Part shown: positions 22,819 through 43,118 of the stretch, one piece after another
Numbering within the stretch: position 1 is the first letter of the stretch
Layout: every line of letters starts with the position of its first letter
Assembly (NCBI GenBank): GCA_020532085.1
Contig: JAJBAV010000024.1
Span: 1 to 44,977 of the forward strand
Direction: 5' to 3'
DNA from: Candidatus Cloacimonadota bacterium
GTDB lineage: Bacteria > Cloacimonadota > Cloacimonadia > Cloacimonadales > Cloacimonadaceae
DNA length: 44,977 bases
Notes under the pieces: generated by a model
Database searches by the model: none
What the model saw: only the letters and a program-made list of their open reading frames with translations
What the model was told of the DNA's origin: nothing
Made by a program: the position numbers and the translations under genes

Positions 22819-22823
22819 CAGTC

Positions 22824-24364: not shown

Positions 24365-26395
24365 TTACATCGCCAATGTCTTGAGCACCGCGCGGTCCAC
24401 GTCGCCGTAGAAGACCACGTCCAGACGTTCGATCACATCTTCCGGCAATCCGGCAAATTGCGTTTTGTTGGAAACGGGGACCAAGGCGCGGTAAGCGCCT
24501 GATTCCAGCGCAAGCTGCAAAGGTTCAGTAATCGAGGCCGGACCCTTGATATTTCCCTGAATGGTCAGGTCACCGAGAACCACCGTCCCGGCCTGCACGT
24601 GGCGGTTACGGACCACGGAAATGATGGCGGTGAAAAAGGCCACGCCGCAAGGACAATCGATGCGGCCGCCCGAGAGGTCCACCGCTTCGGCATAGATGTC
24701 CTTCTGCGCCAGCAACTGTGTCAGACCGAGTTTTTCCTTGACGTTCTGCAGATAACTGAACGCCCGGTTGAGGGATTCTTTCAGTGACTTCTCAAGGCCG
24801 GTCGGGGTCCGGAGCTTGCCTGTGCCCGCCGTCAAGGTGATCTCAAGCCGGAACAAAGCAACCTTGGCTTCAGCATCCACCGCGGCTGTGTAAACCGTGC
24901 CCGGAGGCAGTGGGTCCTGCGAAATGACTCCGGCCCCTCCTTGTTCGGCAACACCCACGGAGCGTTCAGTGTCGTCGGCGAGATCGATATAAGAAAAGCT
25001 GGTCTTGTAAAATTCAAAAGAGCCGCGTTTCTTGAGCTGCTCTTTCACCCGGCGGCGCCCCTCCAGGGCCAGCTCAACATACTCCGTGAGTTCCTCCTTC
25101 GTCCAGTCTCCACCCGGGTGGAGGATTTTGAGAAGGCCGCTCACCGTTTTTTTGGCTGCTGTGGCGTCTCTGCCTTCAACATGCGACCCGAAACGGAAAA
25201 TTCGCTCGGCCTCGTCGAAGCGGTTTTGTTTTCTGAGCACCCGAAACGCTTCGGCCAGATAATCGGTGACGAAGCCGTAACGGGTCGTGAGTATGTCCCG
25301 AGAGCTTTTGGGAACCTCCCAGCCGGGCAGATAAAAATGTATCCGGTCAAGCAGCGCCAAGTCAAATTCCCGGGGAAGCGGTTGGAAAAGGTCCATGGCG
25401 GAGTTTTGGACCAGGCTTTCCACCGGCTGATTGAGGTTGCCGATGAATACCAGGGAAGCATCAGCCAACACCTGTGTGATACCGCGGCTGAAACGACCGT
25501 TGGCCATGTAGTCCTTCATAATTTGGACCGCGTCAGGGTCGGTGATCTTCATACCGCCGACTTCGTCGAAGGCCACGACATCCCAATGCCCAACCAGCCC
25601 GACTTGACGTCGGGCGTTATTGTAAAACAGATTCGCCGTGCTTGCCTTGCCGCCCGAAAGCAGCATGCAGTACGGTGACATCTCGCTGAAAGCATAGGAT
25701 TTACCGGTACCGCGGGGACCGAGTTCGATGAAGTTATAGTTTTTTTCGACAAATGGGATAAGCCGGGTGAGCAACAGCATCTTCAATCTGTGCTCCATCC
25801 TCATCGGCTCAAGGCCCACACTCCTGAGGAGGAGGTCGATCCACTCGTCCCTTGTCATCCCGCCCCTGCCTTCCAGGTACTCTTCCAGATCAAAACGGGC
25901 GAGCTGGATTGGTTTCAGATCGACGATATGGAAGGGGCTGTCCTTTTTGCCCTCTTCAGTCAATCTGAACTCAACATCAATGACGGCCCAGATGCCGCCC
26001 TCAAGCAGTCGTTCGTATCGTCGGTAAAACTCCTCGGGGATGTGTATCTTGGCGTAGCCGAAATGGTCCATTGAGGCCCAGTACTTGTTTTCGCTTGGAA
26101 GGAAACGGACTTCAACGCGGTCGATGAACCGATGTCTGCCTTTCTGCTCAACCATGGACTGGGCCTTGTTCGCCTCGTCATGTCGGAAATAATTCGCGGT
26201 CAAGGTCTCTTTAACGGCATCGACACCGATGCGAATCTCCTCGTTGTTGTCCGAAGCGCAGTATTTGCCCAAGAGATACTCAAGCACATAGGATGGCACG
26301 TTTTCGCCGCCTTTAATCTGGTGCAAAAGGTCCTTGCGCACCACCTTCCCAGCGAAAATACGGCTCACTTTCTGATCTAGAAGGTCAATTTCCAT
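24365..26395 (-). CDS. brxL: BREX protein BrxL (AAA+ with Lon-like C-terminal domain)
   Basis: BrxL is the ring-forming DNA-binding ATPase of type I BREX, needed for phage restriction. The ATG at 26395 is chosen (AGGTGG 7 bases ahead) and gives 676 residues beginning MEIDLLDQKVSRIFAGKVVRKD. The family block VPSYVLEYLLGKYCAS follows. Walker A is GPRGTGKSYAF near residue 228 and Walker B is VVAFDEVGG. The Lon-type C-terminal domain is present (GVAFFTAIISVVRNRHVQAGTVVLGDLTIQG), but where Lon has PSAG this protein has PCG, and no lysine of the usual GG-K-E-K segment is seen, so proteolysis is doubtful. It closes the brx set, after an ATPase-DUF4276 cassette. Confidence 0.93.
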   Translation of the reverse strand: MEIDLLDQKVSRIFAGKVVRKDLLHQIKGGENVPSYVLEYLLGKYCASDNNEEIRIGVDAVKETLTANYFRHDEANKAQSMVEQKGRHRFIDRVEVRFLPSENKYWASMDHFGYAKIHIPEEFYRRYERLLEGGIWAVIDVEFRLTEEGKKDSPFHIVDLKPIQLARFDLEEYLEGRGGMTRDEWIDLLLRSVGLEPMRMEHRLKMLLLTRLIPFVEKNYNFIELGPRGTGKSYAFSEMSPYCMLLSGGKASTANLFYNNARRQVGLVGHWDVVAFDEVGGMKITDPDAVQIMKDYMANGRFSRGITQVLADASLVFIGNLNQPVESLVQNSAMDLFQPLPREFDLALLDRIHFYLPGWEVPKSSRDILTTRYGFVTDYLAEAFRVLRKQNRFDEAERIFRFGSHVEGRDATAAKKTVSGLLKILHPGGDWTKEELTEYVELALEGRRRVKEQLKKRGSFEFYKTSFSYIDLADDTERSVGVAEQGGAGVISQDPLPPGTVYTAAVDAEAKVALFRLEITLTAGTGKLRTPTGLEKSLKESLNRAFSYLQNVKEKLGLTQLLAQKDIYAEAVDLSGGRIDCPCGVAFFTAIISVVRNRHVQAGTVVLGDLTIQGNIKGPASITEPLQLALESGAYRALVPVSNKTQFAGLPEDVIERLDVVFYGDVDRAVLKTLAM

Positions 26396-26485
26396 ATTCC
26401 ACCTGTAGAGCTGTTGCAGGATTAAAAGAGGCATCCTTAAGTTTGCGGTTCTTCAGGCTGTAGATACCTACCCACTATTGTTGCG

Positions 26486-27127
26486 CTACCGACGCGTCTC
26501 ACAAACAAGTCGGTCCAAATCCCTCATCAGCTTTGCGTAGGATGGAGAGCGACGCTGTACACCGGCAGCAAGTGACAACGCGCCGGTAAGCTGAAGCTGA
26601 TGAGTCGTTTCTTCATATGGACAAGATAAAAGATCCGCAATAAGTCTCTTGCATCCGGCATGCGCTTCAGGCTCCAACTCACCTGGAATCCTATTCCCAG
26701 CGGGCAAAAGCTGAGCCTGACGAATGGAAGTAAGACTCGCCAGGAACCAAGCTTCATACTCCCGATTGGCGACTACCACGGCTAGCGGAATATGCGAAGC
26801 GACGGCACGTGCTCGAGCCAAAAGTACAGGCCCTAATCCATTATCCCGCCCTCTTTTTAGACATTCATCATCAGCGTCGACAATAACTAGAATCGCGTCA
26901 GGACGGATCCTAACGGCGGCTTCAATATAATGCTCAATACCGATGTGGCGTTGACTGTCGTAGGCGGCCTTCAATTTCCCGCAACCTTTTGCATTAACGG
27001 CTAAATCCGTTACTTCAAAATATTTGTCAAACCTACGATGGTAAAGCCATCGCCTGATGAGACAGGGGACCGCCCTTTCTTCTCCAAATCCTTCGACAAC
27101 GGGTACGATCTTTTTTTTTCTTCTCAT
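26486..27127 (-). CDS. DUF4276-like TOPRIM-fold partner protein (cassette 2)
   Basis: A 213-residue protein with two motifs of a TOPRIM metal site: an N-terminal glutamate in VVEGFGEERAVP (residues 10-21) and LVIVDADDE (near 80), the D-x-D element. The middle has VVVANREYEAWFLASL, a stretch that recurs as YDFEAWLLPY in the other cassette. I relate it to DUF4276 from this pattern. TOPRIM proteins paired with ABC-type ATPases include the OLD nucleases, Gabija GajA and the AriA-AriB pair of PARIS, so a nuclease effector is a reasonable guess. The ATG overlaps the upstream ATPase stop by ATGA. The gene is AT-richer than brxC or pglZ. Confidence 0.65.
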   Translation of the reverse strand: MRRKKKIVPVVEGFGEERAVPCLIRRWLYHRRFDKYFEVTDLAVNAKGCGKLKAAYDSQRHIGIEHYIEAAVRIRPDAILVIVDADDECLKRGRDNGLGPVLLARARAVASHIPLAVVVANREYEAWFLASLTSIRQAQLLPAGNRIPGELEPEAHAGCKRLIADLLSCPYEETTHQLQLTGALSLAAGVQRRSPSYAKLMRDLDRLVCETRR

Positions 27128-28379: not shown

Positions 28380-29366
28380 TTAATCAGTACATAAATCACC
28401 GAACATTTCGGTGTATTTGATGATAGGATGGCGAAAGAATCCCTTTATCTTGTCCGTGAGCTGTTGGAGTGATTGCATGATGGTGATCACCCGTTCGTGG
28501 AATTCTTTTTTACCGCCATGCGACATGCGGCCCATGTTATGGTTTTTCAAATAATTCCAAACAAGTTCATCGGGGTTCAGCTCGGGGGAATAGGGCGGCA
28601 AGTGGAAGAGTCTCAATTTACCTTTTGTATTTCGAACAAACTCTCGAACTTTCTCCGATCGATGAACGGAATGATTGTCGACAATCAAAAAGACAGGAGC
28701 CGTGGCATTGGCAATCAGTCGGCCGAGAAATTCACAAAACACTTCGGAGTTCACCGTGTTCTCCGTGGCCATAAACCGCAACTCCCCTTTGGGGCTGATC
28801 GCGGAGAGCACATTCACCTTGAAACGGGCGCCCGTCGTGGCAACCACCGGTGTCTTCCCCTTAGGAGCCCAGGTGGTTCCGGAATGATAGTCGGACCGAA
28901 CAGAGGCCTCGTCTCCAAAATAGATAGCAGCACCTTCCTGCTTGGCCAGTTTTTTGATCGCAGGAAAATCCTTGGCCATCCAGTCGACGACAAGCGTCTG
29001 ATCCTGTTGGTAGGCACGGTGAACAGGACGTTGCGGGCTCAAGCCAAGTTTGTGCAGCAATCGGCCAACAGACACATCGCTCAATCGAACACTGAACTCC
29101 CGACTGATCAGTTCCCGAACCATGCCCCGTGTCCAAAGCGCAAAGGGAAATTTCAATTGTCGAGGGTCTCTGCCGACAACCAAGCGATAGATTTTCTGCA
29201 AATCCTTGCCCGCAAGCTTCGAAGGACGGCCGGTGGCCTTGCTGCTCCTCAGCGCCTCGACTCCTCCTTCTCGATACTTGGCAATCCATTCGTAGATGCG
29301 AGGCCGAGTAAGACCCAACGCCTTGATGACAACTTCGGGACTTTCCCCTGCCTCGACTCGCTTCAC
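28380..29366 (-). CDS. IS630-family transposase
   Basis: DDE transposase that cuts and pastes the element at TA sites. N-terminal helix-turn-helix region: VIKALGLTRPRIYEWIAKYREGG. Catalytic core: GDEASVRSDY (first Asp region), FLIVDNHSVHRSEKV (second), LPPYSPELNPDELVWNYLK (third, with Glu). From the GTG at 29366 there are 328 residues. Family-like sequence (GRKINRKALEEIRIRA) continues upstream in the same frame without an ATG, GTG or TTG, so the true start is unusual or has been lost. The stop TAA is completed by the TA target copy plus one flanking base. All three catalytic residues appear intact. Confidence 0.88.
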   Translation of the reverse strand: MKRVEAGESPEVVIKALGLTRPRIYEWIAKYREGGVEALRSSKATGRPSKLAGKDLQKIYRLVVGRDPRQLKFPFALWTRGMVRELISREFSVRLSDVSVGRLLHKLGLSPQRPVHRAYQQDQTLVVDWMAKDFPAIKKLAKQEGAAIYFGDEASVRSDYHSGTTWAPKGKTPVVATTGARFKVNVLSAISPKGELRFMATENTVNSEVFCEFLGRLIANATAPVFLIVDNHSVHRSEKVREFVRNTKGKLRLFHLPPYSPELNPDELVWNYLKNHNMGRMSHGGKKEFHERVITIMQSLQQLTDKIKGFFRHPIIKYTEMFGDLCTD

Positions 29367-29505: not shown

Positions 29506-32046
29506 TTAATCCATCATAGCGCTTTTCAGCTTGCGTCTCGCCCACACGACGCGCGTCTGCGGATCGCTCACCCTGATTTCGATCTCCGCCCCATTGAAAT
29601 CAGGATCGATCAATACAGGAACGGGGGTTTCTTTGCCCGCCGGTAAACTCACCTCACGGGTCTTCTCGTCCCGTGCCTCACAGTCGGCCGCCTCACCCAC
29701 CACCTTGGATTTGATACTTGATCCGCCGTAAGCTTCAATTTTTACAGATATCGGCGGGTCTCCTGAGATACCCATTTGTTTGACCACATAGACTATCGTC
29801 AGGCCGATAACACGGCTGGTGAACTTATCCGACCGATAACGGACGTCGATCTCCGGCTTACCTGCAGTTGTTTGTTTCTCCCGTCCGGCCCGAAAAACAA
29901 TCACCGGCACAATCGCCTCCTGGAGGCTCAGCCCCCCATGGAAGTAGCCGTCACCGTCTGAAAAAACGCGGAACCCGACAGGCAGGCAGACCTCCTGCAC
30001 ATCTCCTTGAACCCCCACATGGCCCGCCTTCAGGGTGACGGTCCCGGCGGATCGGGCAAGGCCCGAACCCAGAAGGCACCGGCGCTTGGACGCTGGCCAG
30101 CCGCCCGGAGGGGTCTGAACCACATCGCCAGCCGGAATTTCCGGCAGCATCATGTGGCCGTGGTCGGCACTGATCACTACGCGGTCGATCCCCTGAGACA
30201 CCACCCACCGTACCGCGGCCGCGATATCTCCGATCACATCCGAGAGGCAGCGCCGGGCGCGCCAGGCTCCGAGGTTTTCAGCCACAGCATCCGGGTCCTG
30301 GGTGCGCACCACGAAGAGGTCAGCTTTCTTCAGATTCGCGGCGGCTTTCTTGGGTGAACCGAGCAGGTCGTCCAAAGTGGTTTCGAAAAACCGGTCTCCG
30401 TAGGTGTCGGCCAACAGTTTCATACGGTCCGCCGATGTCTTCAGCAGGCGGGTTCCGAGGGCCGGGACAAGGCCCCCGTCCTTTTCGACAAGTCGTAGCA
30501 TCCCGTCCGCACCCGGCATGAGCGCCGCCATGCCGCAGCCGGTCACCGTCGGGACCACCCCGGCGGCGTAGCTGATGTGGACTTCACCCGTTCCAGCCAA
30601 GACTTCACCTAAATCACGGCCCATTTCGTAGCGGAGGGAATCCACCATGAAAAACGCGGTTTTCTCGCGACGTTCCAGTAACGGGGCTACATGTTCGTCG
30701 AAAATGCGGGTCTGCCTCGGTGCTCCGTCCGGCGGCCAACCCTCCGCCTGAACCGCTGCAAGGAATGCATCCTGCAAAACCGTGACGGCTTCGCGATAGC
30801 GACAACGGCAGAGGTCGACGACCGGGGCGATGACATCATCGTCGGTACAGGCGGTGAGGGCCGTTTCAAACAGGCGCGACACCCGGTCGAGGTCCGACCA
30901 ACCGCCCTTAGTGTACGCGTTCATCAGAGCCGTGAGGTTCTTTTTCCCCGTCAAGTCCCCCGAAACCGCAGCGGCGGATTCAATCATGGCGGCCGCCCTT
31001 TCAAGGGCCGTCCAGGCTGGCGACCTCTGCGGGTCATTCCGCCAAATCGACCGTCTTCGGTTTTCGATCACCGTTCGAGCCACGGTCGAATCGCCGGTGA
31101 CGACACGCCCGACCGCGCGGCCGAGCAGACGCCGTTCCTCGAAAGGGAAAGTGTCGCGTTCGCCGGGGTCGAAATCTTTCGGCATCAAATCCGGCAGGCG
31201 GAGCCCGCTTTCGATCTCCTGCGCCAACTCGACATAGGTTTTGCGCAGATACGTGTCACTGCGCATCCTGTCACAGGCCGCAAAGACCACGGACTTCGCT
31301 TCGACGTCCGCGCGCGGCACGGCGCTCAAGGCTTCGGGAACGTTTTCCGGAAGATCAAACACGAACTCGCTGAACAAGATGTATTCGGCGGCTTTCGGCC
31401 TCAGCACATTCCAGTCGCGGTCGCTGCCGGTGGATTTGAACCCGACGACGGTAGCGAGCAACCGCAGCAGCTCGTCTACACAGCCCGGCTTAGCGGCGAC
31501 TTCCTTTGCTTTCGTTGTGTTGCACAGGAACGATGCGATAATTTCCGCCGGGGTTTCCGTCCGGAATACGTCGTTCAGCAGCGGCCAACGCTGCGTTTTT
31601 TCCAAGCCGTCCAGAAGGGCGATATCCGGCTTCCCTTCGCGGAAAAGCCTTGTGATCTCGTCGGCCTTGTCCGGCATGGCCTGGCGGGCGAGCGATTCAA
31701 GCTCCTGGTCCTCGGTGTCGCCGAAGGGTGCGCCCGCCATAGCGTAGACCTCGAAGGGATCCCGCATTTTCTCTTCCTCTCCCGCGCCCCGACGGCGCGG
31801 TATGTAGATGAGCAGGCAGCGGCCCCGTTCCGAGGGGTTTTCAGATTCGTTCATCAGCCGGTAAATCTCGTCGGCTCGGCGGCGCGTCTTAAGGACCGAG
31901 GCTTCGGTGGACAGCACCTCGCAGTTCGGCGCGTTGAACTCCGCAGCAAAGGATCTGAAATTTCCTTCGGCGTCGTACCAGACCACGATGCGACGGTCGC
32001 CCAAAAGATCGACAAGCTTTTTATGCAGAAACGAGGTGAACTTCAT
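29506..32046 (-). CDS. pglZ: BREX protein PglZ (alkaline-phosphatase superfamily)
   Basis: PglZ is the BREX core protein present in all types, a predicted metal-dependent phosphatase or nuclease. The 846-residue protein has an N-terminal region beginning MKFTSFLHKKLVDLLGDRRIVVWYD, a long helical middle, and the PglZ domain: FFMVDSLRYEMGRDLGEVL (near 465, metal Asp), VPTVTGCGMAALMPG (nucleophile-Thr region), and VVISADHGHMMLPE (near 625, metal Asp/His). C-terminal beta-rich part of about 150 residues. GGAGG lies ahead of the ATG. It is flanked by two ATPase-DUF4276 cassettes: one ends 40 bp upstream, and the other begins after the IS630 downstream. Confidence 0.93.
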   Translation of the reverse strand: MKFTSFLHKKLVDLLGDRRIVVWYDAEGNFRSFAAEFNAPNCEVLSTEASVLKTRRRADEIYRLMNESENPSERGRCLLIYIPRRRGAGEEEKMRDPFEVYAMAGAPFGDTEDQELESLARQAMPDKADEITRLFREGKPDIALLDGLEKTQRWPLLNDVFRTETPAEIIASFLCNTTKAKEVAAKPGCVDELLRLLATVVGFKSTGSDRDWNVLRPKAAEYILFSEFVFDLPENVPEALSAVPRADVEAKSVVFAACDRMRSDTYLRKTYVELAQEIESGLRLPDLMPKDFDPGERDTFPFEERRLLGRAVGRVVTGDSTVARTVIENRRRSIWRNDPQRSPAWTALERAAAMIESAAAVSGDLTGKKNLTALMNAYTKGGWSDLDRVSRLFETALTACTDDDVIAPVVDLCRCRYREAVTVLQDAFLAAVQAEGWPPDGAPRQTRIFDEHVAPLLERREKTAFFMVDSLRYEMGRDLGEVLAGTGEVHISYAAGVVPTVTGCGMAALMPGADGMLRLVEKDGGLVPALGTRLLKTSADRMKLLADTYGDRFFETTLDDLLGSPKKAAANLKKADLFVVRTQDPDAVAENLGAWRARRCLSDVIGDIAAAVRWVVSQGIDRVVISADHGHMMLPEIPAGDVVQTPPGGWPASKRRCLLGSGLARSAGTVTLKAGHVGVQGDVQEVCLPVGFRVFSDGDGYFHGGLSLQEAIVPVIVFRAGREKQTTAGKPEIDVRYRSDKFTSRVIGLTIVYVVKQMGISGDPPISVKIEAYGGSSIKSKVVGEAADCEARDEKTREVSLPAGKETPVPVLIDPDFNGAEIEIRVSDPQTRVVWARRKLKSAMMD

Positions 32047-32086: not shown

Positions 32087-32701
32087 TCATGGGATCACCG
32101 GTTCACCGCACGCCGAAAGAATCGTATTGATGAATGCCTTAAGTTCCTGACATTGGTTGATCGCGATTGACAAATCGTTCTCTCTGAGAATCCGCCCGGC
32201 GTCACGAGGTTTTATGTAGCTGTCCCGGCATTTGCCGATCTCAAAGATTTCCTTGATTCGGTATGCAGGTGGGTTTTGATGGTTCACGGTTTCCGGATTG
32301 CCGCTGGGGGCACCTCTGTTATGCTTCGCCAATTTTTGGATCGTCGTCCAGTAAGGCAGCAGCCAAGCCTCAAAATCATATTGGGCGGCATGGGGATGAA
32401 ACCTCGGCTCTTTTCCCACCCATTGCCTCATTTTATTCTTGGCGTCTTGCGCATCGATGAAATCGGGAGGATTTGTGCCGGTATACACATCGGTCAGTGC
32501 AATCACATGATCAGCGGGTTTACCCCCACCCAAAAGGTTTTCCACGACTCGTCTTAATTTGTCCTCTTTGGGGATGCGGCCGTCGTAAGGAAAAACATCC
32601 AGCTTGGGTGTCTTGGTGGCCAGACGATTTTTCAAAAAATCCTGTAGGTACGGAAGAAACGCCTTTTCGGTTTTGCCTTCGACGATGATGGATATTTTCA
32701 T
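32087..32701 (-). CDS. DUF4276-family TOPRIM-like partner protein (cassette 1)
   Basis: A 204-residue protein from the ATG at 32701, which overlaps the stop of the preceding ATPase gene (ATGA); a longer frame adds ten residues from inside that gene. It begins MKISIIVEGKTEKAFLPYL, the typical DUF4276 opening with the TOPRIM glutamate, then VIALTDVYTGTNPPDF, where the D-x-D element reads DVY, and HAAQYDFEAWLLPYW and YIKPRDAGRIL. Compared with the cassette 2 protein it keeps the fold landmarks but has a different acidic motif. Likely works with the ATPase encoded just ahead. AT-richer than pglX ends and pglZ. Confidence 0.8.
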   Translation of the reverse strand: MKISIIVEGKTEKAFLPYLQDFLKNRLATKTPKLDVFPYDGRIPKEDKLRRVVENLLGGGKPADHVIALTDVYTGTNPPDFIDAQDAKNKMRQWVGKEPRFHPHAAQYDFEAWLLPYWTTIQKLAKHNRGAPSGNPETVNHQNPPAYRIKEIFEIGKCRDSYIKPRDAGRILRENDLSIAINQCQELKAFINTILSACGEPVIP

Positions 32702-33846
32702 GACCGACCTCCCATCCGGCCCATCCGCCATACTTCGTCAAGGCTGTATTCAGCCAACCATCGGTCAATATCCAATGAGTCGGCCCATGTCGCCGATGCA
32801 CATCCGTTGTCGTCCAGATCCATCACCACCACTTCTTCCGGTTTTAAGAAGCGTATGAACCTATCCGAATGTGTGGCGACAACCAATTGCGTTCGTTGTG
32901 CGGCCTCGCGCATAAGATCCGCCAGCAGGCCCAGCAATTCCGGATGCAAACTGACCTCGGGTTCGTCGATCATGGTAATGGTTGAAAGATGAGGGCTTTG
33001 CAGTAATGCTGTGAGCCATAGAAATCGAAGAGTTCCTTCAGACAGTTCATTCATATAGATCGGCTTGCTGAACTTTTTGTCTTTCCAGGTCATGGCCAAC
33101 ATTCCGGCCGCCACCGGTGGAAAATTCAGCTCTTCGAAATCCGGAAAAGCCGTTTTCAAAGCGTCCAGAACAGCCTCATATCGATCACGATCTCCCTCAC
33201 GCAGGTAATATAAATACGGAATCAAGTCCGAACCATCATGTCCGGGCAAGGTGGCTGGTTTCATGGGTTGCGGCATTTTCACCGGGGCACGGGGGCCTAC
33301 ATCCAAGACGTGATACTGGGTGGCGGTTGCCAAGATGCGTCTTAGTTCCTCAGGTTGCCGAAACATTTTCGGCACCTGGGAGAGTGAAGTTTCCAAGGGG
33401 TCGTGTTCCCAATCGGGACGAACGAGGTGATTTGCCTCTGTTTCGTAGTACTTGATGTCGCCGTACGACGAATCGATGTGACGGAACGGGTCACTAAAAC
33501 CCGGCCGCTTCTGACACAACAATTCTCTGGAGATGGAATAGCCGGTTCCCTTTGGATCAAGCCGAAGATCATATTCAAGAGGCTCATGTCCAGGCACAGT
33601 CATATCAACGAGTAATGAAAGGTTTTCACTTTTACCGCGGGTCAAAAGATTTGCAATACCGCCGAATTTCGACAAAATGCTGTTCAAATTGCCTGATGCC
33701 GAAGCGGAGAGTATGGAAAAAGCATCTAGAAAAGAAGTCTTGCCGACGCCGTTTGCACCGATCAGAACCATAAAGGGCCGCACCTGTAGATCTATGTTGA
33801 GCAGCCGCCTGAAACCATTTATTTTGATCCGGTTGATCTTATTCAT
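32698..33846 (-). CDS. AAA/ABC-type ATPase (AAA_21-like; cassette 1)
   Basis: A 382-residue RecF-like ATPase: NRIKINGFRRLLNIDLQV, Walker A IGANGVGKTSFLDAF (near residue 33), signature-like MNELSEGTLRFLWLTALL, Walker B TMIDEPEVSLHPELLGLL, and VVATHSDRFIRFL. A strong AGGAGGAA stands 7 bases before the ATG, 15 bp after pglX, so it is well translated independently. Its stop overlaps the DUF4276 gene. With that partner it forms the first of two such cassettes in the island; the two ATPases share architecture but little obvious sequence beyond motifs. Confidence 0.82.
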   Translation of the reverse strand: MNKINRIKINGFRRLLNIDLQVRPFMVLIGANGVGKTSFLDAFSILSASASGNLNSILSKFGGIANLLTRGKSENLSLLVDMTVPGHEPLEYDLRLDPKGTGYSISRELLCQKRPGFSDPFRHIDSSYGDIKYYETEANHLVRPDWEHDPLETSLSQVPKMFRQPEELRRILATATQYHVLDVGPRAPVKMPQPMKPATLPGHDGSDLIPYLYYLREGDRDRYEAVLDALKTAFPDFEELNFPPVAAGMLAMTWKDKKFSKPIYMNELSEGTLRFLWLTALLQSPHLSTITMIDEPEVSLHPELLGLLADLMREAAQRTQLVVATHSDRFIRFLKPEEVVVMDLDDNGCASATWADSLDIDRWLAEYSLDEVWRMGRMGGRS

Positions 33847-33861
33847 TATATTCCTCCTGTA

Positions 33862-36800
33862 TCAGGAATTTCCCTTTTTCCGACGGGCGCGGCCGCCTTT
33901 GATCCTGGGTTTCGGGGCTTCAACCTCACAGAGATCCTCAAGTCCGTGGGCGATGGCGATGGAGCGGTCCTTTTTGCAGACTTCCCGGACGCGGTCGGGC
34001 CATATGGTGTACGCCAGGTGCGCCCAGTCGTAGTCGCCTTTCTCAAGCTTTTTCCAGCAAGCCTCCGTATCTTTGCTCCAGGAGCGCAGGCGGAAAAGGC
34101 TGTGGAACGGCGCGGCGTTGATGATCACGCCGTCGTTGAGGTCCGGCTTGTAAGGCAGTGCGGCGATGCGGAGCAATTCCTCGCGCAGGTCATGCAGTTC
34201 ACCGAGAAACGTGCGGGCTTCATTCAGTCGGTCGTTCAAACGGGTTGCCTCGCGGCCGGAGGAGGCTTTCAGGTTGTTTTCAATTTGGGTTGTCCCGCGT
34301 TCGACTTCCGAGATCTTGGGTTCGACGTACTTGTTGACCGCCCCGTAGAGCGTCTGGTCGTTCAGGCGGTGGTAGTAGAGCCAGATGGTGTACGATCCCG
34401 AGGCGGTGGAGAGCGGCCAATAGATCGGGGCCTTGCGCCGGCTCTTGGAATAGCGCTTCAGGTGGTTTTGGAAGAATCCCGCCGGTCTTCGGAAGTAATC
34501 ACGCAGGTCGGAGACGCCGAGGATGTCGCAGGCTTCCTGTTCGATCTCGTGGGATTTGTCCTTCCAGAGCAGGTCGAAGACCTCGCGCACACGGCGGACG
34601 ATGTCGTCCCGGTGCGGCCGGTCGCCGTTGAAACCGGGATCGTCCACCAGGACGCCCTCCCAGGAGATACGCAGTGGATACTCCGAATCAGGGATGTTCG
34701 GGTTCTTGACCGAGCCTTTCGGCGGCAGGGTGTTCGCGTCCGGTCGGGCGCGGAGCCATTCTTCGCTGACGATGCGGTTCGTTTTGGCGGGCAGGCCATC
34801 CGGCCCGACCAACATCCCCGGCGGACAGATCGGCAGTGGATCGAAGAGGTCGGGAGGCTTCGGGGCGAGCGAAGGGTCGATGGTTATACGGATGTCCCAG
34901 CGGCCGAAGATACATCCAAGAATGTAGCTGCATATAGAATGGTGATCATCATCACGTATTTGTTGTTCGTTTTCTATTCTTTCGTTATCATCAGCTTCTT
35001 GTGTATCTGAAACCCAAGCGGGGCTGTTCACACTATCCATCAAATCGCGTTCCAGAATTTCCATATCGGTACGATTGAAACCATAGATTTGCCCAATTTC
35101 AAGATCAAGATTGCTTCCGATCAAAGATGACCGATCTAGAAGATTTATTTTTGTAAAGGCAAGACTAATTGGGACATTCGTGAACTCTATGCATACTTCA
35201 TCTTCTTTATAGACGTCTTTATGCTTCAATATTATGCTTTTTAGCATCTTATAAATTGCATCAACTATGTTCGCTGGAGCCTCAATGTAAGGAATGGAAG
35301 CAACCATAGAATTCTGAAACTTTGGTTGCCCGAAGTTTTCGCCTCTGAATCTTGCAACTGCACTCGCAACATTTGAGGCAGTTAACGCTAGAACCCATTT
35401 CTCCTTTCCTTTGTGAGGGTAAATCTGCGAGCGACCTGCTGTAGGTATTACACCGGATGGAACAAGATAAGGCACCAAACGTGAAGACCTCAACATATAA
35501 CTGATACCTGAACGAAAATAGAATTCCGTGTTTTGAGGGCGTGACCTTACTTTCCCCTTATTATCCATGAAACTCTTGATCTCAAATCCGTCATTCTTCC
35601 ACTTAACCAATAAATGAATCGAAGCAGCAAACGGGGACGCTTCATCGATTTTAGAATACCAAGCCCATGTCTTGCCCTGGGTAGTAAGTTTTATGAGCGC
35701 TTTTTGATCATCCATACTTTTCAATGCCGGTGGAGTAAAAATTATGGATTTTGGGCTAATTTCATACCAAAGGCGAAGAAACCTATTATCTTCACCAGTT
35801 TGTAACCCAACTCTAATATCAGCGCCAACAGGCTCTAACGTTGAGCGCGCGGCAATCGAACTGATGATTTCTGGTTTGATCCAATAAACATAAGGGGATC
35901 CACTCAATTTCATGAAATTCGTAGAGTTGCCTAGAAACACATTCTTTGAAAACAGGGCGCTTCGTGTATGTTCTATGCAGTTCTCCAATTCGTTTTCTTT
36001 CTCATTACATGTAAGTAAGCGAAAGAATACAGAGTGGCTATTTGACTTCTCACTGCATTTGAAGATCGCAGCAGCAGTCTCTACCATCGCGTCCAAGACA
36101 CCTGAACCCAAGTCCACGAGAGTTTCAACATGTAAACGATTGGCAAGTATAGAAGTTCTAAATTTTTCGAGACTAGTAAGAAAAAAACAGGTTCGACTTA
36201 CAATCACGCCCGTCTTTGCATTTGAACTGCTCAATGTATCTGCTCTTTCCATGAAGTGAGCAAGTATGTTGCCTTTTGAATTTGGATAGTTGGTTTCAAT
36301 GTATACCTTTGAGGTGACAGATAGTTCTCCGAACGGCGGATTCATTAACACCGTGTCGTAGCGCTTTCTACACAGGTCTATTAAGGCGAACCCGCGGGCC
36401 GCATCCTCGGCGAAGAGCCGTCGGCGGACCGCCAGTCCGTTTTCCGCCTGTTCGGCATAGTCCTTCAGGGCATCCAGTATGCGGTCTTCCGCCTGATCCC
36501 AAAATCGCTCGTCGGTGATCTCTTTCACATCGAAGCGCAGTTCCATCTGGGCAGGCTTCACAGGGACCGATCCGCCGAAAAGTTCCAATTGAACGGGTTT
36601 TGGCTGCTCCCCCCATTGCTTCTTGGCCGCGGCCACGGCGTCCTTGATCTCCTCTTCGATTTTCAGGAGAGAGCCCGCCTCGCCCGCGAGTTTCATTTTC
36701 TCGAACACCTCGTCCACGATCTGCCCCAGCACCCGGGGCTTGAGGCCGGTGCTGAACTCTCGGCGCATCTCTTCTTCGCCGGGCATCGGCTCGGCGGTAA

Positions 36801-38085
36801 CGATGTTGGATCTGGAGATGCACGGCCGTTCGGGGGCCTTGAGGCCGAGGTTCTTCCAGCTCTTCTGCGCCCGCAGCCAGAGGGCGAGGGCCGCGATCTG
36901 CACCGCGCGCGGGTCGATGTCAATGCCGTGCAGGTTGTGCTCGATGATCAGTTTCGGGACCTCCCGGCGCAGATCGTCGAGGGTCTCGAAGTCCTGTTGA
37001 ATTGTCCGGCCGGTGGCTTCCAACTTCGGACTTTCAGGATCGTGCCAGGCTTCTTCGTACATCCGTTCCAGTAGGTCAAAGGCGTAAAGCAGAAAGTGAC
37101 CCGACCCACAGGCCGGGTCAAGGATGCGTAGATCGCGCGGGTCTTTTTGGGGTCGGTGCTCGATGTAAACCGGACGTTTGAGCAGTTCCTCCTGGGAAAG
37201 ATCGGTTTCGTCTTCCTTTTCAGCGGGGGCCTTTTCACCCGGACCGAGGAAGACCTCGTTCGGCCTCCGCACAAGATAGCAACATTCTTCCTTGAGCGCC
37301 GTCTCGCCTTTGCGCATCTCGTACCAGATACGCCCCAACGTGTTGTCAGTAAGAAACTCCACGACATACCGCGGGGTGAAGAACTGATTGCGAACAGCCA
37401 ATTCCCGGCTGTTTCGGGGGGACTGGGAGGCCTCCCGCATGGCTTTGCGTTCTTCAGGCGGGTTGAAATACTGGTAGACCCAGCCGATGGTCTCGTCCTC
37501 GGTCCAGAGGTGCGTAAGCTCGGGCTTGTTGAGCTCGGCGAGGAGGTCTTCCATGCAGCGCTCCGAGGGGAACACCGCCGACTGGGGCGTCATTCGGTCG
37601 AACAAGACGCCCAGGTCGAGGGCGAGCTCGTCGAAGAGGCACTCCAGAAACACACGGTAGGTGTCGTAACGTCCGCCAAGCGCGCCGCCGGAGATGCGCT
37701 CGAACATCTGAAAACCGGCCGAAGTCGTTCCTTTGCGGACGCATTCGACCACCAACCCCCGCTCCTCGCACAGACGCAGGGCCGCCAGCCGGTTGAGGGC
37801 GGTGAAAGAGATCTCCAGGACCATCCGCTCATAGGCGGCCTTGCGGCGCTCCGAATCCTTCCCCGCCGCGCCGGCGGTGTAGTGATCGAGAAGATGGCGC
37901 AGACGGCGGGCCGCCGCGTGCTGATCGGGCGAAAGGTGCGCCAGATTTTCAAGCGGCAGCACAACGCCGTCCGGGTGGAGACCGAACACGCCGCAAAGCT
38001 GGTCGGTGACGTCCTCGATCAGCCGACGCCGGCAGGCTGCAACGGTCCTGGCCAGCAGATTTCGTGTGCTTTTGTCGAAACTCAT
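33862..38085 (-). CDS. pglX: BREX adenine-specific DNA methyltransferase PglX
   Basis: Methylates adenine at the BREX site, marking host DNA as self. The ATG at 38085 overlaps the brxC stop (TGATG) and gives 1407 residues beginning MSFDKSTRNLLARTVAACRRR; the longer frame lies inside brxC. Gamma-class N6-adenine MTase features: RNQFFTPRYVVEFLTDNTLGR, SAM motif LDPACGSGHFLLYAFDLL (about 322-340) and catalytic NPPFGEL (near 580). Residues about 570-1050 (bases 34930-36370) are encoded by DNA visibly richer in A/T than both flanks, right where the specificity part should begin. The C-terminus is conserved and basic (RIKGGRARRKKGNS). It is longer than E. coli PglX (about 1200). Confidence 0.93.
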   Translation of the reverse strand: MSFDKSTRNLLARTVAACRRRLIEDVTDQLCGVFGLHPDGVVLPLENLAHLSPDQHAAARRLRHLLDHYTAGAAGKDSERRKAAYERMVLEISFTALNRLAALRLCEERGLVVECVRKGTTSAGFQMFERISGGALGGRYDTYRVFLECLFDELALDLGVLFDRMTPQSAVFPSERCMEDLLAELNKPELTHLWTEDETIGWVYQYFNPPEERKAMREASQSPRNSRELAVRNQFFTPRYVVEFLTDNTLGRIWYEMRKGETALKEECCYLVRRPNEVFLGPGEKAPAEKEDETDLSQEELLKRPVYIEHRPQKDPRDLRILDPACGSGHFLLYAFDLLERMYEEAWHDPESPKLEATGRTIQQDFETLDDLRREVPKLIIEHNLHGIDIDPRAVQIAALALWLRAQKSWKNLGLKAPERPCISRSNIVTAEPMPGEEEMRREFSTGLKPRVLGQIVDEVFEKMKLAGEAGSLLKIEEEIKDAVAAAKKQWGEQPKPVQLELFGGSVPVKPAQMELRFDVKEITDERFWDQAEDRILDALKDYAEQAENGLAVRRRLFAEDAARGFALIDLCRKRYDTVLMNPPFGELSVTSKVYIETNYPNSKGNILAHFMERADTLSSSNAKTGVIVSRTCFFLTSLEKFRTSILANRLHVETLVDLGSGVLDAMVETAAAIFKCSEKSNSHSVFFRLLTCNEKENELENCIEHTRSALFSKNVFLGNSTNFMKLSGSPYVYWIKPEIISSIAARSTLEPVGADIRVGLQTGEDNRFLRLWYEISPKSIIFTPPALKSMDDQKALIKLTTQGKTWAWYSKIDEASPFAASIHLLVKWKNDGFEIKSFMDNKGKVRSRPQNTEFYFRSGISYMLRSSRLVPYLVPSGVIPTAGRSQIYPHKGKEKWVLALTASNVASAVARFRGENFGQPKFQNSMVASIPYIEAPANIVDAIYKMLKSIILKHKDVYKEDEVCIEFTNVPISLAFTKINLLDRSSLIGSNLDLEIGQIYGFNRTDMEILERDLMDSVNSPAWVSDTQEADDNERIENEQQIRDDDHHSICSYILGCIFGRWDIRITIDPSLAPKPPDLFDPLPICPPGMLVGPDGLPAKTNRIVSEEWLRARPDANTLPPKGSVKNPNIPDSEYPLRISWEGVLVDDPGFNGDRPHRDDIVRRVREVFDLLWKDKSHEIEQEACDILGVSDLRDYFRRPAGFFQNHLKRYSKSRRKAPIYWPLSTASGSYTIWLYYHRLNDQTLYGAVNKYVEPKISEVERGTTQIENNLKASSGREATRLNDRLNEARTFLGELHDLREELLRIAALPYKPDLNDGVIINAAPFHSLFRLRSWSKDTEACWKKLEKGDYDWAHLAYTIWPDRVREVCKKDRSIAIAHGLEDLCEVEAPKPRIKGGRARRKKGNS

Positions 38086-41000
38086 CAGCGCCCCTTGATC
38101 CGTATCCGCTTGTTCGATTTCAACAGTCCGGCCAGCTTCTCCCGAATGCTGGCCAGCCAAGAATCCAAATCTGCCATGGAGTCGATTACCGCAGGCAGCG
38201 CTAGCGTGTCGGCTTCGATAATCTCCTCGACCGGCGGCTCGTCGTCCTTTTTGGGAACCGGTTCAGGTTCGGGCTCGGTCGGGCGTTTCCGTATGATTTC
38301 CGCTTTCAGCTCTTCGAGCAAGCCCGGCAGTATCCGCCGGCGGACCAACAGGGTCTGCAGCAGCCTGACGGGGTCGCTGTTCCCGACGGTCGGCGGCAGA
38401 TCACATGTAAGTCCGGCCGCGATCTCCTCGCGGTCCTCGTCCATCAGTTTCATCCAGTCCGGCTCTGTTTCGAGCCCGGTGAGGGCTTTTTTGAGGTCGT
38501 CTTCATACGCAGCGCGATCGACCGCATACCGCTTTTCCGTACGGTCCACGGCGGACCTGACTACGCTTTTCAGATCGGGTAGATGTTCGAAGAACCTTTC
38601 GCTCGACAGTACTTCTTCAGCCGTGGCTCTCTCTTCCACGCTCAAGAGATCGTTTACGGCTCCAGGGAAGAGTTGTTCGAGGTCGGCCAAGGAATCCAGC
38701 ATTGACCGGGCGTTTTGCACGTCGGCCTCCGCGCCGGATTCAAGGGCGTCGAAAACAGCCTTGGCCCAGGTGATCTCGTCCGGCAGCACACATTCAGTTC
38801 CACCGAGGACCGAAGCCGCTTCACCGGCATCGCCCTTCAGCAGATCGGCCGCATCGGCCAGCAGGCGCTGTGAACGCTCTTCACCGGGAAGGCTCAGGAG
38901 ACGCAGACGGTCGGGTAAAGCTCCGAGTTTTTCCAAAAGATCGGGTACGTGCAGCCGGACGGAGCGGCTGATGTGGTCTTCCAACGGCAGAACTTCGTCG
39001 CCAAAGAGGGTTTCCAGGCGTCGGGCGGCCTTGTCCAAGGCTTCGGGGGGCAGCTTGGCATCACGGGACGATACACCGATCCTGTTGAACGAGACCGTGC
39101 TTTTGACGGCTTCCACCGCCTGCGGTCCCGCAGTGCGCACAGGTCCTCCTGCGCCCGGGACGTGGAACTCGATCTCTCCGGCGCGAAGGAGAGCCGCAAA
39201 CAGACACCGTACGGTGTCTTTGGTCCACCCGTAAGGGGGCGAGGAGAACAGATCCTGGAGATAGGAACCCTGCAGCCTGCCGGAACCGGACTCGGCGGTC
39301 TTGGTCCGGAACACCCTGATAACCTCCGCGAGCACCGGGACCGCGGTGTCCACCCGAGGAGCACCCCTGCTCTTGACCACAAGACCGAGAGGATCGAGGT
39401 CCTTGGTGATGCGGTCCATACGTTCTACGCCGAGAAACTTGGCAGCCGCATCCGTGGAAGGCCGGATCGGGGCCAGGTGGAAATGGGGGAAGACCTCCTT
39501 GACGGCCCCGTCCAGGACCGAGCGCATAGCCGCGTCCAGGATCTCGCCGGCTTCACGGACAGGGGTCGGCTTGCCACGGAAGATGAAGACGCCTTCCAGC
39601 ATCGCCTTTTCCATAGCGGCGGCCGTCCGCTCACGGCAGCGCTCGGCCGCCCGGCGTTCGGCGCGCAGATACTGGGCCACCACGTGATCCGCCGTCCGTT
39701 CGTCAACATCGCCGAGGACTTTTTCCGAGCGCACGATTTCGGGAAGGAGGTCCTCCACGGTGTCGTCGTTTTTCACCAGGAGGACCACGGTGTTATTCAG
39801 CTCCACCTGTGCATTGGTGGAGACCAGAAATTCATTTCGTTTGTCGTCCCAGAGAGCAGGATCGACAAATTCCAGGCGCAGCTCGACATCTTCGGAACCG
39901 CCTACGACCGTTGTCCGGCCGAGTTTGACCGATGACCTGACATCCTTGATATTTTCCAGTCTCGCGGCGGGCTGCACACGAAATAATGAATGGTCGGCGG
40001 TACCCTGTTTGAGGATGTCAATCCTTGCCCTCATTGCTTCGCCGGACGTGGGCGCGTAGCTGTTGCGCTTGTCGCGGATCGGCTTGACGGCGTCGCTCAG
40101 GAAGACCCAGCCGCCCGCCTGCGGGTCCTCGATGAGGCCGCATTCTCTCTCAGACGCGATTTTTCGAAGAGCCTCCTGCACCTGGCCGAGCAGCCCGGGA
40201 GCCCCGATCTTTCCATAGAGCAGTGCGGCGAGATTCTCCGCCGTACGCGGAAAGGTCTCCACGGGCTGCAGGGCGGCAACCGCCTTGGCCGTGCGTGTTT
40301 CGAGGGAGTCTGTCCCGAAGATCTTAGCCGTTTTCTCCACGCCGCCGATGACATGAGGCAGGACCTTGGCGATGTCAGCGCGGAGGGTGTCGTAGAAATC
40401 GTCCACGCAGGCGAGCGCGCCGATCTCCCGGTCGGCGAGCTTGACGGCGTCGGCACCGAGGACACGGCTCTTGTCCACCAGCACGTCTTGGATGACGCGA
40501 ATCGCCGACCGCAGACCGATGCCGCCGGTGGAACGGGCAAGAGTCCTGATAAGTTCCAGCAGAAGGTCGAAGTGTTGCGGCAGGAACGGATAGAGGCGCG
40601 TGAACGTCGCCGGATCGGGGTCGCCCTTGAACAGGGTCGTACCGGACAGTCGGGTGTGAGTGACCGTGGATTGACCGTGCTCCTTGAACAGGGCTTCCAG
40701 TTTCTTCCGCCCCTCCTCTGATTTGTCGAGCAGACGCCGGTAGGTGATCTCACGGATGTCGCTCGCGTCGAGATGGATGGAAATCGGGAAACGGTCCCGC
40801 AGCTTGTTGAGCTCCGCGGAGTTATGCGCGGCCTTTTCGACGATTTCGCTCAAAGTCTGTTGGCCGGTGGCGGCGATCCAGACCTTGCCTTTGCCGAGTT
40901 CCTTGAGATTGCGGGCCAGGCCGTCGAGGTTAAGAATCAGCTCGCCGCGGGGGGCGACGTACTGACCGGCCTCGTCCACAAGGAGCAAAATGTTTTCGTG

Positions 41001-41771
41001 TCCGGTCTTGCGCCTGCAGATGTCGATGATCTCGCGCGCCAGATCCCGGACATCCCTGGCTTCCTCGAAACGTAGGCCGCGGAAGCTCTCCGGTGTGGGG
41101 AAATCATCCGACAGAACCTCCGGCACGATCTCCGCGGCGCGGGCCACACCGATCAACGGATCGTTGTGAATTTCCTCCCATTCCCCGTTGTAGCGCGCCC
41201 GGTATCCGGCCTTGAACTCATCGTATTTGCCGCGGCGGTCGAGTGTGAACTCAAGCTGTGCGGTCTTCTTCTCCTTGGAAAAGCCCGCCCATTGCAGAAC
41301 TTTCCAATAGAGCACGGTGGAGACCGGGGCGGCTGCGCTTTCGGCGAGCTGCTCGGCGCCGAGATCGAGCAGCACCACCGCTGTGGGATGTTTTTTGGAG
41401 ACGGTACGCAGTGCGGCCGGAATCTCGTTGCGGGCGAAGCGGTCGCAGAGCAGATCGAGGAAGGGTTTACCTACAACCGTGCGTGTCGGATCGAGGGATG
41501 CTCCGAGGTATTTGGTGAACGAGCTTTTGCCGCTGCCGTAAAAGCCGGACACCCAGATGCCGACCTCCGTCACCTGACCGCCCCTGACGCCTTCGCCGAA
41601 AATATCGAGAAACTTGCGGAAACAGGACTCGATATTGTCCGTAACCTCGTACTCGGCGACCTCACGGGCCAAGCGGTCCTCCTCTTGGGCGTAATAGTCG
41701 ATGACTTTCTCAATGGTCCGATCGATGGGTCGCCGGGGCGAAAATACCTGTCGAATCCTTTCGCTCATCAT
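38085..41771 (-). CDS. brxC: BREX P-loop protein BrxC
   Basis: Large ATPase of the BREX core, thought to bridge the methylation and restriction components. It has 1228 residues. It starts with MSERIRQVFSPRRPIDRTIEKVIDYYAQEED, with Walker A GFYGSGKSSF (76-85) and Walker B ILLLVDEAGQYVAPRG (261-276). The remainder is helical with few recognisable motifs; a Pro/Glu-rich linker lies near residues 1185-1200. Two adjacent ATGs (41771 and 41768) overlap the brxB stop; either could serve. Ends in the pglX start. Confidence 0.94.
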   Translation of the reverse strand: MMSERIRQVFSPRRPIDRTIEKVIDYYAQEEDRLAREVAEYEVTDNIESCFRKFLDIFGEGVRGGQVTEVGIWVSGFYGSGKSSFTKYLGASLDPTRTVVGKPFLDLLCDRFARNEIPAALRTVSKKHPTAVVLLDLGAEQLAESAAAPVSTVLYWKVLQWAGFSKEKKTAQLEFTLDRRGKYDEFKAGYRARYNGEWEEIHNDPLIGVARAAEIVPEVLSDDFPTPESFRGLRFEEARDVRDLAREIIDICRRKTGHENILLLVDEAGQYVAPRGELILNLDGLARNLKELGKGKVWIAATGQQTLSEIVEKAAHNSAELNKLRDRFPISIHLDASDIREITYRRLLDKSEEGRKKLEALFKEHGQSTVTHTRLSGTTLFKGDPDPATFTRLYPFLPQHFDLLLELIRTLARSTGGIGLRSAIRVIQDVLVDKSRVLGADAVKLADREIGALACVDDFYDTLRADIAKVLPHVIGGVEKTAKIFGTDSLETRTAKAVAALQPVETFPRTAENLAALLYGKIGAPGLLGQVQEALRKIASERECGLIEDPQAGGWVFLSDAVKPIRDKRNSYAPTSGEAMRARIDILKQGTADHSLFRVQPAARLENIKDVRSSVKLGRTTVVGGSEDVELRLEFVDPALWDDKRNEFLVSTNAQVELNNTVVLLVKNDDTVEDLLPEIVRSEKVLGDVDERTADHVVAQYLRAERRAAERCRERTAAAMEKAMLEGVFIFRGKPTPVREAGEILDAAMRSVLDGAVKEVFPHFHLAPIRPSTDAAAKFLGVERMDRITKDLDPLGLVVKSRGAPRVDTAVPVLAEVIRVFRTKTAESGSGRLQGSYLQDLFSSPPYGWTKDTVRCLFAALLRAGEIEFHVPGAGGPVRTAGPQAVEAVKSTVSFNRIGVSSRDAKLPPEALDKAARRLETLFGDEVLPLEDHISRSVRLHVPDLLEKLGALPDRLRLLSLPGEERSQRLLADAADLLKGDAGEAASVLGGTECVLPDEITWAKAVFDALESGAEADVQNARSMLDSLADLEQLFPGAVNDLLSVEERATAEEVLSSERFFEHLPDLKSVVRSAVDRTEKRYAVDRAAYEDDLKKALTGLETEPDWMKLMDEDREEIAAGLTCDLPPTVGNSDPVRLLQTLLVRRRILPGLLEELKAEIIRKRPTEPEPEPVPKKDDEPPVEEIIEADTLALPAVIDSMADLDSWLASIREKLAGLLKSNKRIRIKGR

Positions 41772-42334
41772 AGACCTCCAAGCAACGTCGACCGGTAGTT
41801 GCCGTCGACCGGGTAAAAGTCAAGAAAATGGAGACCGTACTGGCCGGATCTCCTGCCGGGATAGAAAATCACCGTCGGTGTTTTGACCTTGTCGTGCAAT
41901 TGGCTCTCGATGGTCCGCGTACGGAAATAGGGATGAAGCAGCTCCGCCTCGGTGAGCAGCACGACGGTGCCGGCGGGGGTCGACTCGATCACTTGAGCCA
42001 CCCGGTCCACCAGAGAGTTCCCCTGGCGGAGGACGTCACGGACCGCTTCATTAATCTGATCCGCCTCGGCGTCGGCTTCCAGTTCAAGCCAAATATCCCA
42101 TCTGCCGGACTTGTCGACCGTGTCCCAAAGGAGGTCCGCAAGAGAAACGCGGCGGACTTCGAAGCCCGTCTCCTTTATCCTGGATGTCCATCGCGGCAGA
42201 TATTTTTTAAGATCGAGCATCAATTCGGGTGGATAAGCGAAATAGAAAACCGGGTCGCTCCTGGCCGGATTGAGCGCATCAGTGTCTTGGATTTTGTCGA
42301 GCAGTTCGTTGAATGCATTATCGAGCGAGTACAT
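41768..42334 (-). CDS. brxB: BREX protein BrxB (DUF1788)
   Basis: Small conserved BREX protein of unknown molecular role. The 188-residue product has the DUF1788 layout: N-terminal AFNELLDKIQDTDALNP, then FYFAYPPELMLDLKKYLP, a middle region, and the C-terminal FYPGRRSGQYGLHFLDFYPVDGNYRSTLLGG, where FYPG and the F..YPVDGNYR ending are the family's best markers. Overlaps brxA by 17 bp and brxC by 4 bp, so it is tightly coupled. Confidence 0.92.
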   Translation of the reverse strand: MYSLDNAFNELLDKIQDTDALNPARSDPVFYFAYPPELMLDLKKYLPRWTSRIKETGFEVRRVSLADLLWDTVDKSGRWDIWLELEADAEADQINEAVRDVLRQGNSLVDRVAQVIESTPAGTVVLLTEAELLHPYFRTRTIESQLHDKVKTPTVIFYPGRRSGQYGLHFLDFYPVDGNYRSTLLGGL

Positions 42335-43118
42335 CGATCAACTCCTCAATGGATTTGATAACCCAGGTGAAATGCACGACCGAGCCGGCGCGCTGAACAA
42401 TCACCCCACGATGTTCACCGATCCCGTCCAGCCGCTCCACCACTTCGGACGGCGTCATTCCGAACAGTCCCCAGTCTGAATGGTTACAAAGGGAGGAATC
42501 CGTCACGCCCGCTTCATTGAGTTCCCGGGCCAAGATCGCAGCCCCTTCATCCGACATGCGGTAGTTGACGATCTCCCTGCGGCCCCGGACGACTTCATGA
42601 AGGAATCCGACATCTCGAAGGAGACCGAGAACAGAGCGGGCGATGCGCACCGACACCTTCTCCGACCATTGGTTGTCCAAGCGGCCGTCGTAATGTGCTT
42701 CCGACAGAAAGGAGAGCATCGGGTCCGTGTCCATGACGGGTCTTCCCCTGCGGGCGGCGGGCCAGTATTCACGTATCGTGAAGTCATAGACCAGGGGGTC
42801 CTGACGTGCCGTAAACACGAACAGGAGCTCGGTGAAAACACGCCCCGACAGACCTGATGCAAGCACCTTTTGAAGAATCCGTGCGGGCTTGTCACTCGGT
42901 CTCAAGAACCGCGGTATAAATACTCTTCTTACGATATCGCGCGTTCTGTAGGCGGTGGAGTTGCCGAGCAGCCCTTCAGTCTGGACCCTGCGCGTGAAAT
43001 CATCGAGCGGTTCATCCGGACGCCATTGTTCGAGGAGGCGCCGTGTCTCTTCGATCATCCCGGCGCCCTTGCTGATCGCGGTCGAGTATTTCCGTTGTGC
43101 TTCTTTATTCATGGTCAC
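42318..43118 (-). CDS. brxA: BREX protein BrxA (DUF1819)
   Basis: DNA-binding accessory protein of the BREX core. The 266-residue product begins with YSTAISKGAGMIEETRRLLEQW, the typical family opening, and continues with ILQKVLASGLSGRVFTELLFVFTARQDPLVYDFTIREYWPA and a winged-helix-like region LDNQWSEKVSVRIARSVLGLLRDVGFL. The start could be the GTG at 43118, overlapping the brxE stop as GTGA, or the ATG two codons later (43112). DUF1819 proteins are in several BREX types. Confidence 0.92.
   Translation of the reverse strand: MTMNKEAQRKYSTAISKGAGMIEETRRLLEQWRPDEPLDDFTRRVQTEGLLGNSTAYRTRDIVRRVFIPRFLRPSDKPARILQKVLASGLSGRVFTELLFVFTARQDPLVYDFTIREYWPAARRGRPVMDTDPMLSFLSEAHYDGRLDNQWSEKVSVRIARSVLGLLRDVGFLHEVVRGRREIVNYRMSDEGAAILARELNEAGVTDSSLCNHSDWGLFGMTPSEVVERLDGIGEHRGVIVQRAGSVVHFTWVIKSIEELIDVLAR

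Follow-up and report, generated by a model that had tools for sequence, protein, structure and literature searches.

A mosaic pglX gene with an exchangeable central cassette in the type 1 BREX operon of a Candidatus Cloacimonadota bacterium, and a two-gene form in the same enzyme family

Enzymes of the type 1 BREX PglX (BrxX) kind are characterized by in vivo methylation of a non-palindromic site of six bases and by a role in phage defence. The pglX gene analyzed here has an AT-rich centre between GC-richer ends, which raises the question whether the centre was exchanged as a unit, where this unit begins and ends, and what it encodes. The initial annotation had proposed that the part determining specificity was replaced by recombination while the conserved ends were kept. 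We analyzed a stretch of 44,977 nucleotides (the window), which is contig C24 of a 2.8 Mb Candidatus Cloacimonadota genome in 98 contigs, rated 99% complete. The window pglX is very probably a mosaic of a conserved backbone (residues 1-587 and 1061-1407) and an exchangeable cassette (residues 588-1060) swapped between pglX genes, a judgement that covers the explanation given below as a whole.

The window carries a complete type 1 BREX operon, with brxA, brxB, brxC, pglZ and brxL all accompanying pglX on one strand and in order. The operon genes and all parts of pglX described below lie on the minus strand. The brxA (42318..43118) and brxB (41768..42334) genes were assigned by the Pfam BrxA and BrxB models, brxC (38085..41771) and pglZ (29506..32046) by PADLOC (BrxC 1726 bits, PglZ 1070 bits), and brxL (24365..26434) by Pfam BrxL_ATPase, BrxL_N and Lon_C. 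The minus-strand order is brxA, brxB, brxC, pglX, an AAA_21/DUF4276 pair, pglZ, an IS630-like transposase gene, a second AAA_21/DUF4276 pair and brxL, followed by a C5 methyltransferase and then a Vsr endonuclease. The presence of two AAA_21 ATPase and DUF4276 pairs (PADLOC HEC-01A/B) within one BREX operon, at 32087-33846 (between pglX and pglZ) and 26486-28314 (between the transposase gene and brxL), was observed in addition. The transposase gene (28380-29366, named from sequence) is on the operon's strand, between pglZ and the second HEC-01 pair, and the island ends at 22315-24202 with the C5-cytosine methyltransferase gene and the Vsr-like mismatch endonuclease gene, both also named from sequence.

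The PglX backbones closest to the window were found in the complete chromosome of the Synergistota strain L-13 (L036) and in three metagenome bins with uncertain species labels, L039 (Syntrophobacterales), L040 (Anaerolinea) and L074 (Ozemobacter). Between the window and the close loci brxA, brxC, pglZ and brxL are 80-94% identical, with the exception of a short brxL end in L039. A close PglX was absent from 60 genomes of the host's own genus, family or order. Since most of the operon is conserved in step, yet the sampled host order is without a close PglX, the BREX operon was probably acquired horizontally. The neighbourhood varies among these loci: L036 is without either AAA_21/DUF4276 pair, L039 is without the first, and the C5-cytosine methyltransferase is 83% identical in L036. 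The brxB gene (41768-42334) is more variable than its neighbours (94% identity to L040 and 63% to L036, as against 88-94% for brxA and brxC) and may have been exchanged as well.

The pglX (brxX) gene itself (33862..38085) is one open frame of 1407 aa, its ATG start at 38085 overlapping the brxC end. The protein matched the NCBIfam model NF033452 (BREX_1_MTaseX) with 822 bits (cut-off 500) and the PADLOC model PDLC02527 with 1728 bits, and both the SAM-binding motif DPACGSGHFLL and the catalytic motif NPPFGE are present. An AlphaFold model of residues 215-1407, built from 34 aligned homologues, had a mean pLDDT of 84 and a pTM of 0.75. Its best Foldseek matches in the PDB were Salmonella PglX 8c45 (E-value 5.5e-47) and E. 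coli BrxX 9ewz (1.3e-42), with a TM-score to solved PglX of about 0.6 across almost the entire chain, a value compatible with hinged domains, and with the target-recognition domain (TRD), the spacer and the C-terminal region included.

The conserved N-terminal backbone, residues 1-587 (36325..38085), comprises the helical domain and the first half of the methyltransferase fold up to NPPFGE, catalytic motif IV, which forms the left joint (residues 582-587 from the ATG at 38085, 36325..36342) according to the change points of both identity and third-position GC (GC3). The replaceable cassette, residues 588-1060 (34906..36324), has a GC content of 0.40. Our model and an alignment with the structures of PMC11341690 and PMC11842806 assign to it the hinge, the TRD, the helical spacer and, before these, the second half of the methyltransferase domain; the C-terminal region that follows the cassette belongs to the backbone. 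The second half of the methyltransferase fold takes up about residues 588-691 (36013..36324; AlphaFold secondary structure, model residues 374-477) and contains a beta-hairpin turn at residues 678-685 (36031..36054), between model strands 456-463 and 471-475, where homologues of a split family described below are divided and which is unbroken here. The TRD, placed by the model and by alignment to 8c45, in which it spans residues 662-849 (PMC11341690), lies approximately at 35299..36006, and the predicted spacer helices (34909..35274, helices at model residues 724-845) end directly before GRWD. The conserved C-terminal backbone, residues 1061-1407 (33862..34905), begins with GRWDIRI. In the model a strand and the catalytic motif immediately precede the cassette, which stops where the spacer helices end, so that both joints fall at domain limits, as judged by the model and the solved relatives (PMC11341690, PMC11842806). 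The expectation that the centre, at about residues 570-1050, is the target-recognition region was thus correct in that the TRD lies inside, and too narrow in that the block is larger, with about 100 residues of methyltransferase fold and the spacer helices in addition.

A three-segment maximum-likelihood fit to third-position GC divided the gene into parts with GC3 of 0.75, 0.37 and 0.78, the AT-rich part being 34912-36330, and gained 101 log-likelihood units, compared with at most 13 in 200 codon shuffles. The support intervals of the boundaries were 36351-36324 and 34932-34905, and the change points are at NPPFGE and just before GRWD (residue 1061). The AT-rich centre of the initial annotation, 34930-36370, is confirmed by this fit, with coordinates right to about 45 bp, as is its start directly after the catalytic motif, the segment beginning after NPPFGE and ending at GRWD. 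At 0.40 the total GC of this part is below that of every other 1419-bp stretch in the 45 kb; elsewhere the minimum is 0.47. Corrected for amino acids, GC3 in the window centre is 0.35 against 0.78 expected (z = -21.8). In all 35 unsplit homologues, from many phyla, centre GC3 was below the value expected from flank codon use and the amino acids of the centre, over all amino acids, and with the addition of 10 plasmid-borne PglX genes (E. coli and Acinetobacter included) the lower-GC3 centre was found in 44 of 45, in hosts of very different GC. With a deficit of 0.43 the window is one of the most extreme cases; no real deficit is seen in Paraburkholderia or in two Lactobacillaceae whose flanks are very AT-rich. 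The average GC dip across homologues reaches about 100 codons past each joint, as expected if recombination ends are scattered in the flanks. We rejected composition as proof of a recent import, as the low-GC centre is family-wide and is also found in relatives with different cassettes. The composition argument was accordingly right about the AT-rich centre and is weak when taken alone.

The identity to close relatives is lost and recovered in steps. In residues 1-587 (GC3 0.75-0.76) the window protein is about 90% identical to L036, L039 and L040 (88-90%), and most 30-codon blocks of the corresponding DNA are 84-97% identical in L036 and L039, with L074 similar except for a few variable stretches. 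Directly after NPPFGE the identity falls to background, about 25-45% for DNA and about 20-26% for the protein, in comparison with the cassettes of enzymes whose backbones are 90% identical. From GRWD on, DNA identity is back to about 90% where the 3' end is present, and the C-terminal backbone (GC3 0.78) has 84-87% protein identity to L036 and L039. For each of the three pairs formed by the window, L036 and L039, the change-point fit placed the left break at 0 codons from NPPFGE and the right break at 0 codons from GRWD. L036 and L039 are the two relatives in which the right joint could be fully tested, as L040 ends 43 residues past GRWD and L074 before it. L040 and L074 have an N-terminal backbone of the window's type with yet other cassettes, and the centre differs in each enzyme. 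The latest exchange may have taken place in the window gene or in one of its relatives. Relatives with the same composition and steady identity along the gene would have spoken against replacement; the composition is indeed shared, but the identity collapses at the joints, and this sharp drop at both boundaries supports the proposed replacement by recombination with conserved ends. Within the N-terminal part a linker (36556-36645, residues 481-510) is 57% identical to L036 and L039, which are 97% identical to each other there.

No donor of the cassette was found, the nearest cassette being that of Geomonas propionica Red259 (L035), with 41-42% identity. In residues 841-930 of the window PglX, a part of the TRD, the identity to this enzyme is 63-73%, with backbones about 50% identical, and the recognition sites of the two, as far as sequence can tell, are possibly related. 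In phage and plasmid records tblastn found as cassette donor only distant PglX with 21-32% identity, two scans of IMG/VR gave no match to the cassette, and no close backbone copies were found on plasmids.

We then cut 50 homologues, chosen by peptide patterns and thus not a random sample, at the NPPFGE and GRWD joints, and among their 1225 pairs the mean identity of the centre was 23-31% whatever the identity of the N end (20-95%). The N end and the C end are correlated (Spearman 0.79, and 0.86 among unsplit genes), compared with 0.17 between N end and centre and 0.22 between C end and centre. The ends correlate across the gap and the centre follows neither, which shows joint inheritance of the two ends and exchange of the centre. 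The backbone and cassette trees disagree, both being 'quick' trees without bootstraps and the cassette tree having long branches. In most of the other backbone clades tested (Geobacteraceae with a Desulfobacteraceae bin, one Synechococcus pair, a Paracoccaceae-Lysobacterales pair, and Steroidobacteraceae-Rubrivivax) the left break is at most 1 codon from NPPFGE, and the right break varies; two cyanobacterial pairs are exceptions with a left break about 100 codons upstream. These comparisons show the mosaic structure, its exact joints in the window gene and a recurrent exchange across the family.

In 15 of the 50 homologues pglX is present as two genes, and the first gene stops 92-97 codons after NPPFGE in all 15 (L062 and L102, with stops at other places, were left out of this group). 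The second gene overlaps the stop by 1-8 bases in ten of them (ATGA, GTGA, TAATG, TGATG), and these translationally coupled genes mostly have a GGAGG-like site formed by the final sense codons of the first gene. In our model the split falls in the turn between the neighbouring strands 456-463 and 471-475, where the methyltransferase fold is nearly complete. The last strand of the fold would thus be the first element of the second protein, which would also contain the TRD and the C-terminal domain. The window pglX is unsplit, with no stop or restart in this hairpin. The BREX operons with split genes contain brxC and, in most cases, brxB, pglZ and brxL as well, and split genes occur in isolates including Nonomuraea, Devosia, Roseococcus, Roseomonas, Actinoplanes and Lamprocystis; random sequencing errors are no explanation, as several isolates have split genes in BREX operons. 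The break at one beta-hairpin, the mostly overlapping start and stop codons with a ribosome-binding site and the occurrence in many phyla indicate two working genes. The half-length PADLOC models PDLC02526 and PDLC02532 match the two halves, and such proteins are thus already in databases. In the BREX literature covered, the original 2015 survey excepted, we found no description of a two-gene form. The pglX of a Vibrio parahaemolyticus plasmid (L119:323-3887), which is annotated as two genes, was rejected as a member, since its break lies inside the TRD at an A run and is frameshift-like, unlike the split family.

On the backbone tree the split character requires 10 changes, 9 of them forced by well-supported branches (shuffled mean 11.5), compared with 2 changes on the cassette tree, a value as low as which was obtained in 0 of 500 shuffles. 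The split cassettes form one well-supported group on unrelated backbones, and by these trees the split form is a property of the cassette and moves with it between backbones. L040 is of the split form, and its N-terminal backbone is 89-95% identical to those of L036, L039 and the window. When close backbones of the split family are compared, the left break is at +90 to +104, at the split, and the exchanged part can therefore be shorter. Exactly between the pglX halves of L040 and of the metagenome bin L085, also of uncertain species label, lies an OLD-family gene (AAA_15 and OLD-like TOPRIM; L040:10034-11722, L085:8781-10622), with the overlap kept on both sides in L040 (CTATGA, CCTATGA). Two one-piece enzymes, L060, whose cassette groups inside the split family, and L077, which has a similar first part, are possibly fusions of a formerly split enzyme. 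We moderately favour the wider reading that BREX specificity travels as a mobile cassette in one piece or two pieces: a two-piece PglX would be an M subunit plus a separate S-like subunit (last sheet strand, TRD and C-terminal domain), a cassette swap would convert one architecture into the other, and the junction would be a landing place for an OLD-family nuclease gene, the window pglX being a one-piece member of a backbone clade that includes the two-piece L040.

Could the centre have diverged in place, very fast under phage selection and without any exchange? Recognition domains do evolve fast, and ConSurf ranks the TRD as the most variable part of BrxX (PMC11842806), but DNA identity falls from about 90% to background within one codon, silent positions included, the correlation between the ends spans the gap and leaves out the centre, and the trees are discordant, with one well-supported group of split cassettes on unrelated backbones, so that divergence in place is highly improbable. 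A second source of variation would be local: silent cassettes elsewhere in the genome could be shuffled into pglX by a recombinase, and phase variation of pglX has been reported in other BREX systems (PMC11341690, PMC9122589). In the 99% complete host genome we found one cassette copy and no second or silent one, and the sole transposase seen nearby, the IS630-like gene, is beyond pglZ; there is very little chance that such shuffling produced the mosaic. Mis-assembly can mimic recombination joints, and the host genome is in 98 contigs, but an assembly chimera or sequencing artefact is extremely improbable for a frame that is open over 1407 codons with both joints in-frame at domain limits, a fold predicted with a pLDDT of 84 and an architecture repeated in independent assemblies.

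The AT-rich centre could also reflect an intrinsic constraint of codon use or expression, in which case composition would be silent on import. The lower corrected GC3 in 44 of 45 genes from such different hosts favours this explanation, which we nevertheless regard as unlikely: the deficit is not fixed, being about zero in Paraburkholderia and the two Lactobacillaceae and large in the window, which an AT-richer pool fits better, and a constraint leaves the loss of identity unexplained. A cassette pool that is AT-richer than the backbones seems to be a simpler account of the dip than a fixed constraint.

We return to exchange as the preferred explanation. Cassettes are traded among pglX genes, and the simplest route would be homologous recombination in the flanks, since the flanks can still be aligned and the cassettes cannot. 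The conserved ends retain the catalytic motif and presumably also contact the other BREX proteins. The cassette contributes the end of the methyltransferase fold together with the hinge, TRD and spacer helices, and would set the DNA site. From the sequences we infer a change of the methylation site and an import of the cassette from AT-richer sources. This gives a concrete account of how BREX could change the guarded sequence without rebuilding the complex, the ends being kept and one block traded, and with the joints known to the codon, chimeras can be designed by the family's own rules.

The window PglX resembles the type 1 enzymes of Salmonella (8c45) and E. coli HS (9ewz) in fold, motifs, operon and family models. 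The TRD has been described as the most variable part of PglX/BrxX and as the part that sets the site (PMC11341690, PMC11842806). In the PglX/BrxX papers covered, variation has been treated as TRD divergence or point changes, whereas the unit exchanged here is an entire cassette that extends from motif IV through the spacer and has codon-resolved joints. Type IIL enzymes (MmeI, DrdV) are likewise single-chain gamma-class methyltransferases with a C-terminal TRD, and MmeI (5hr4) was a fold match of the PglX model; they carry a nuclease, whereas PglX is without a nuclease and has extra N- and C-terminal domains.

In Antarctic Synechococcus two pglX part-genes that together make a whole were read as interruption or truncation (PMC9716671). 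There, too, two frames cover PglX, as in the split family; what sets the split family apart is a break located in one beta-hairpin in many phyla, in most cases with a ribosome-binding site and a start codon that overlaps the stop codon. According to a 2025 review, BREX methyltransferase proteins contain the recognition domain as an integral part (PMC12707154). The two-gene form does not agree with this statement and would make BREX specificity directly comparable with HsdM/HsdS.

For the recognition domains of HsdS, exchange between conserved flanks by recombination (domain movement, DOMO) was described by Furuta et al., with new specificities expected (PMC3077401). Both the step-like loss and recovery of identity between near-identical flanks and a cassette phylogeny independent of the flanks were found here, as for HsdS TRDs. 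HsdS is a subunit of its own that has repeats and two TRDs, whereas the unit exchanged in pglX is internal to the methyltransferase and takes in a portion of the catalytic fold. The mosaic pglX thus adds a new and well-resolved example to a class of events that is already known, with the two-gene form as an attached architectural variant and with an exchange unit larger than had been supposed.
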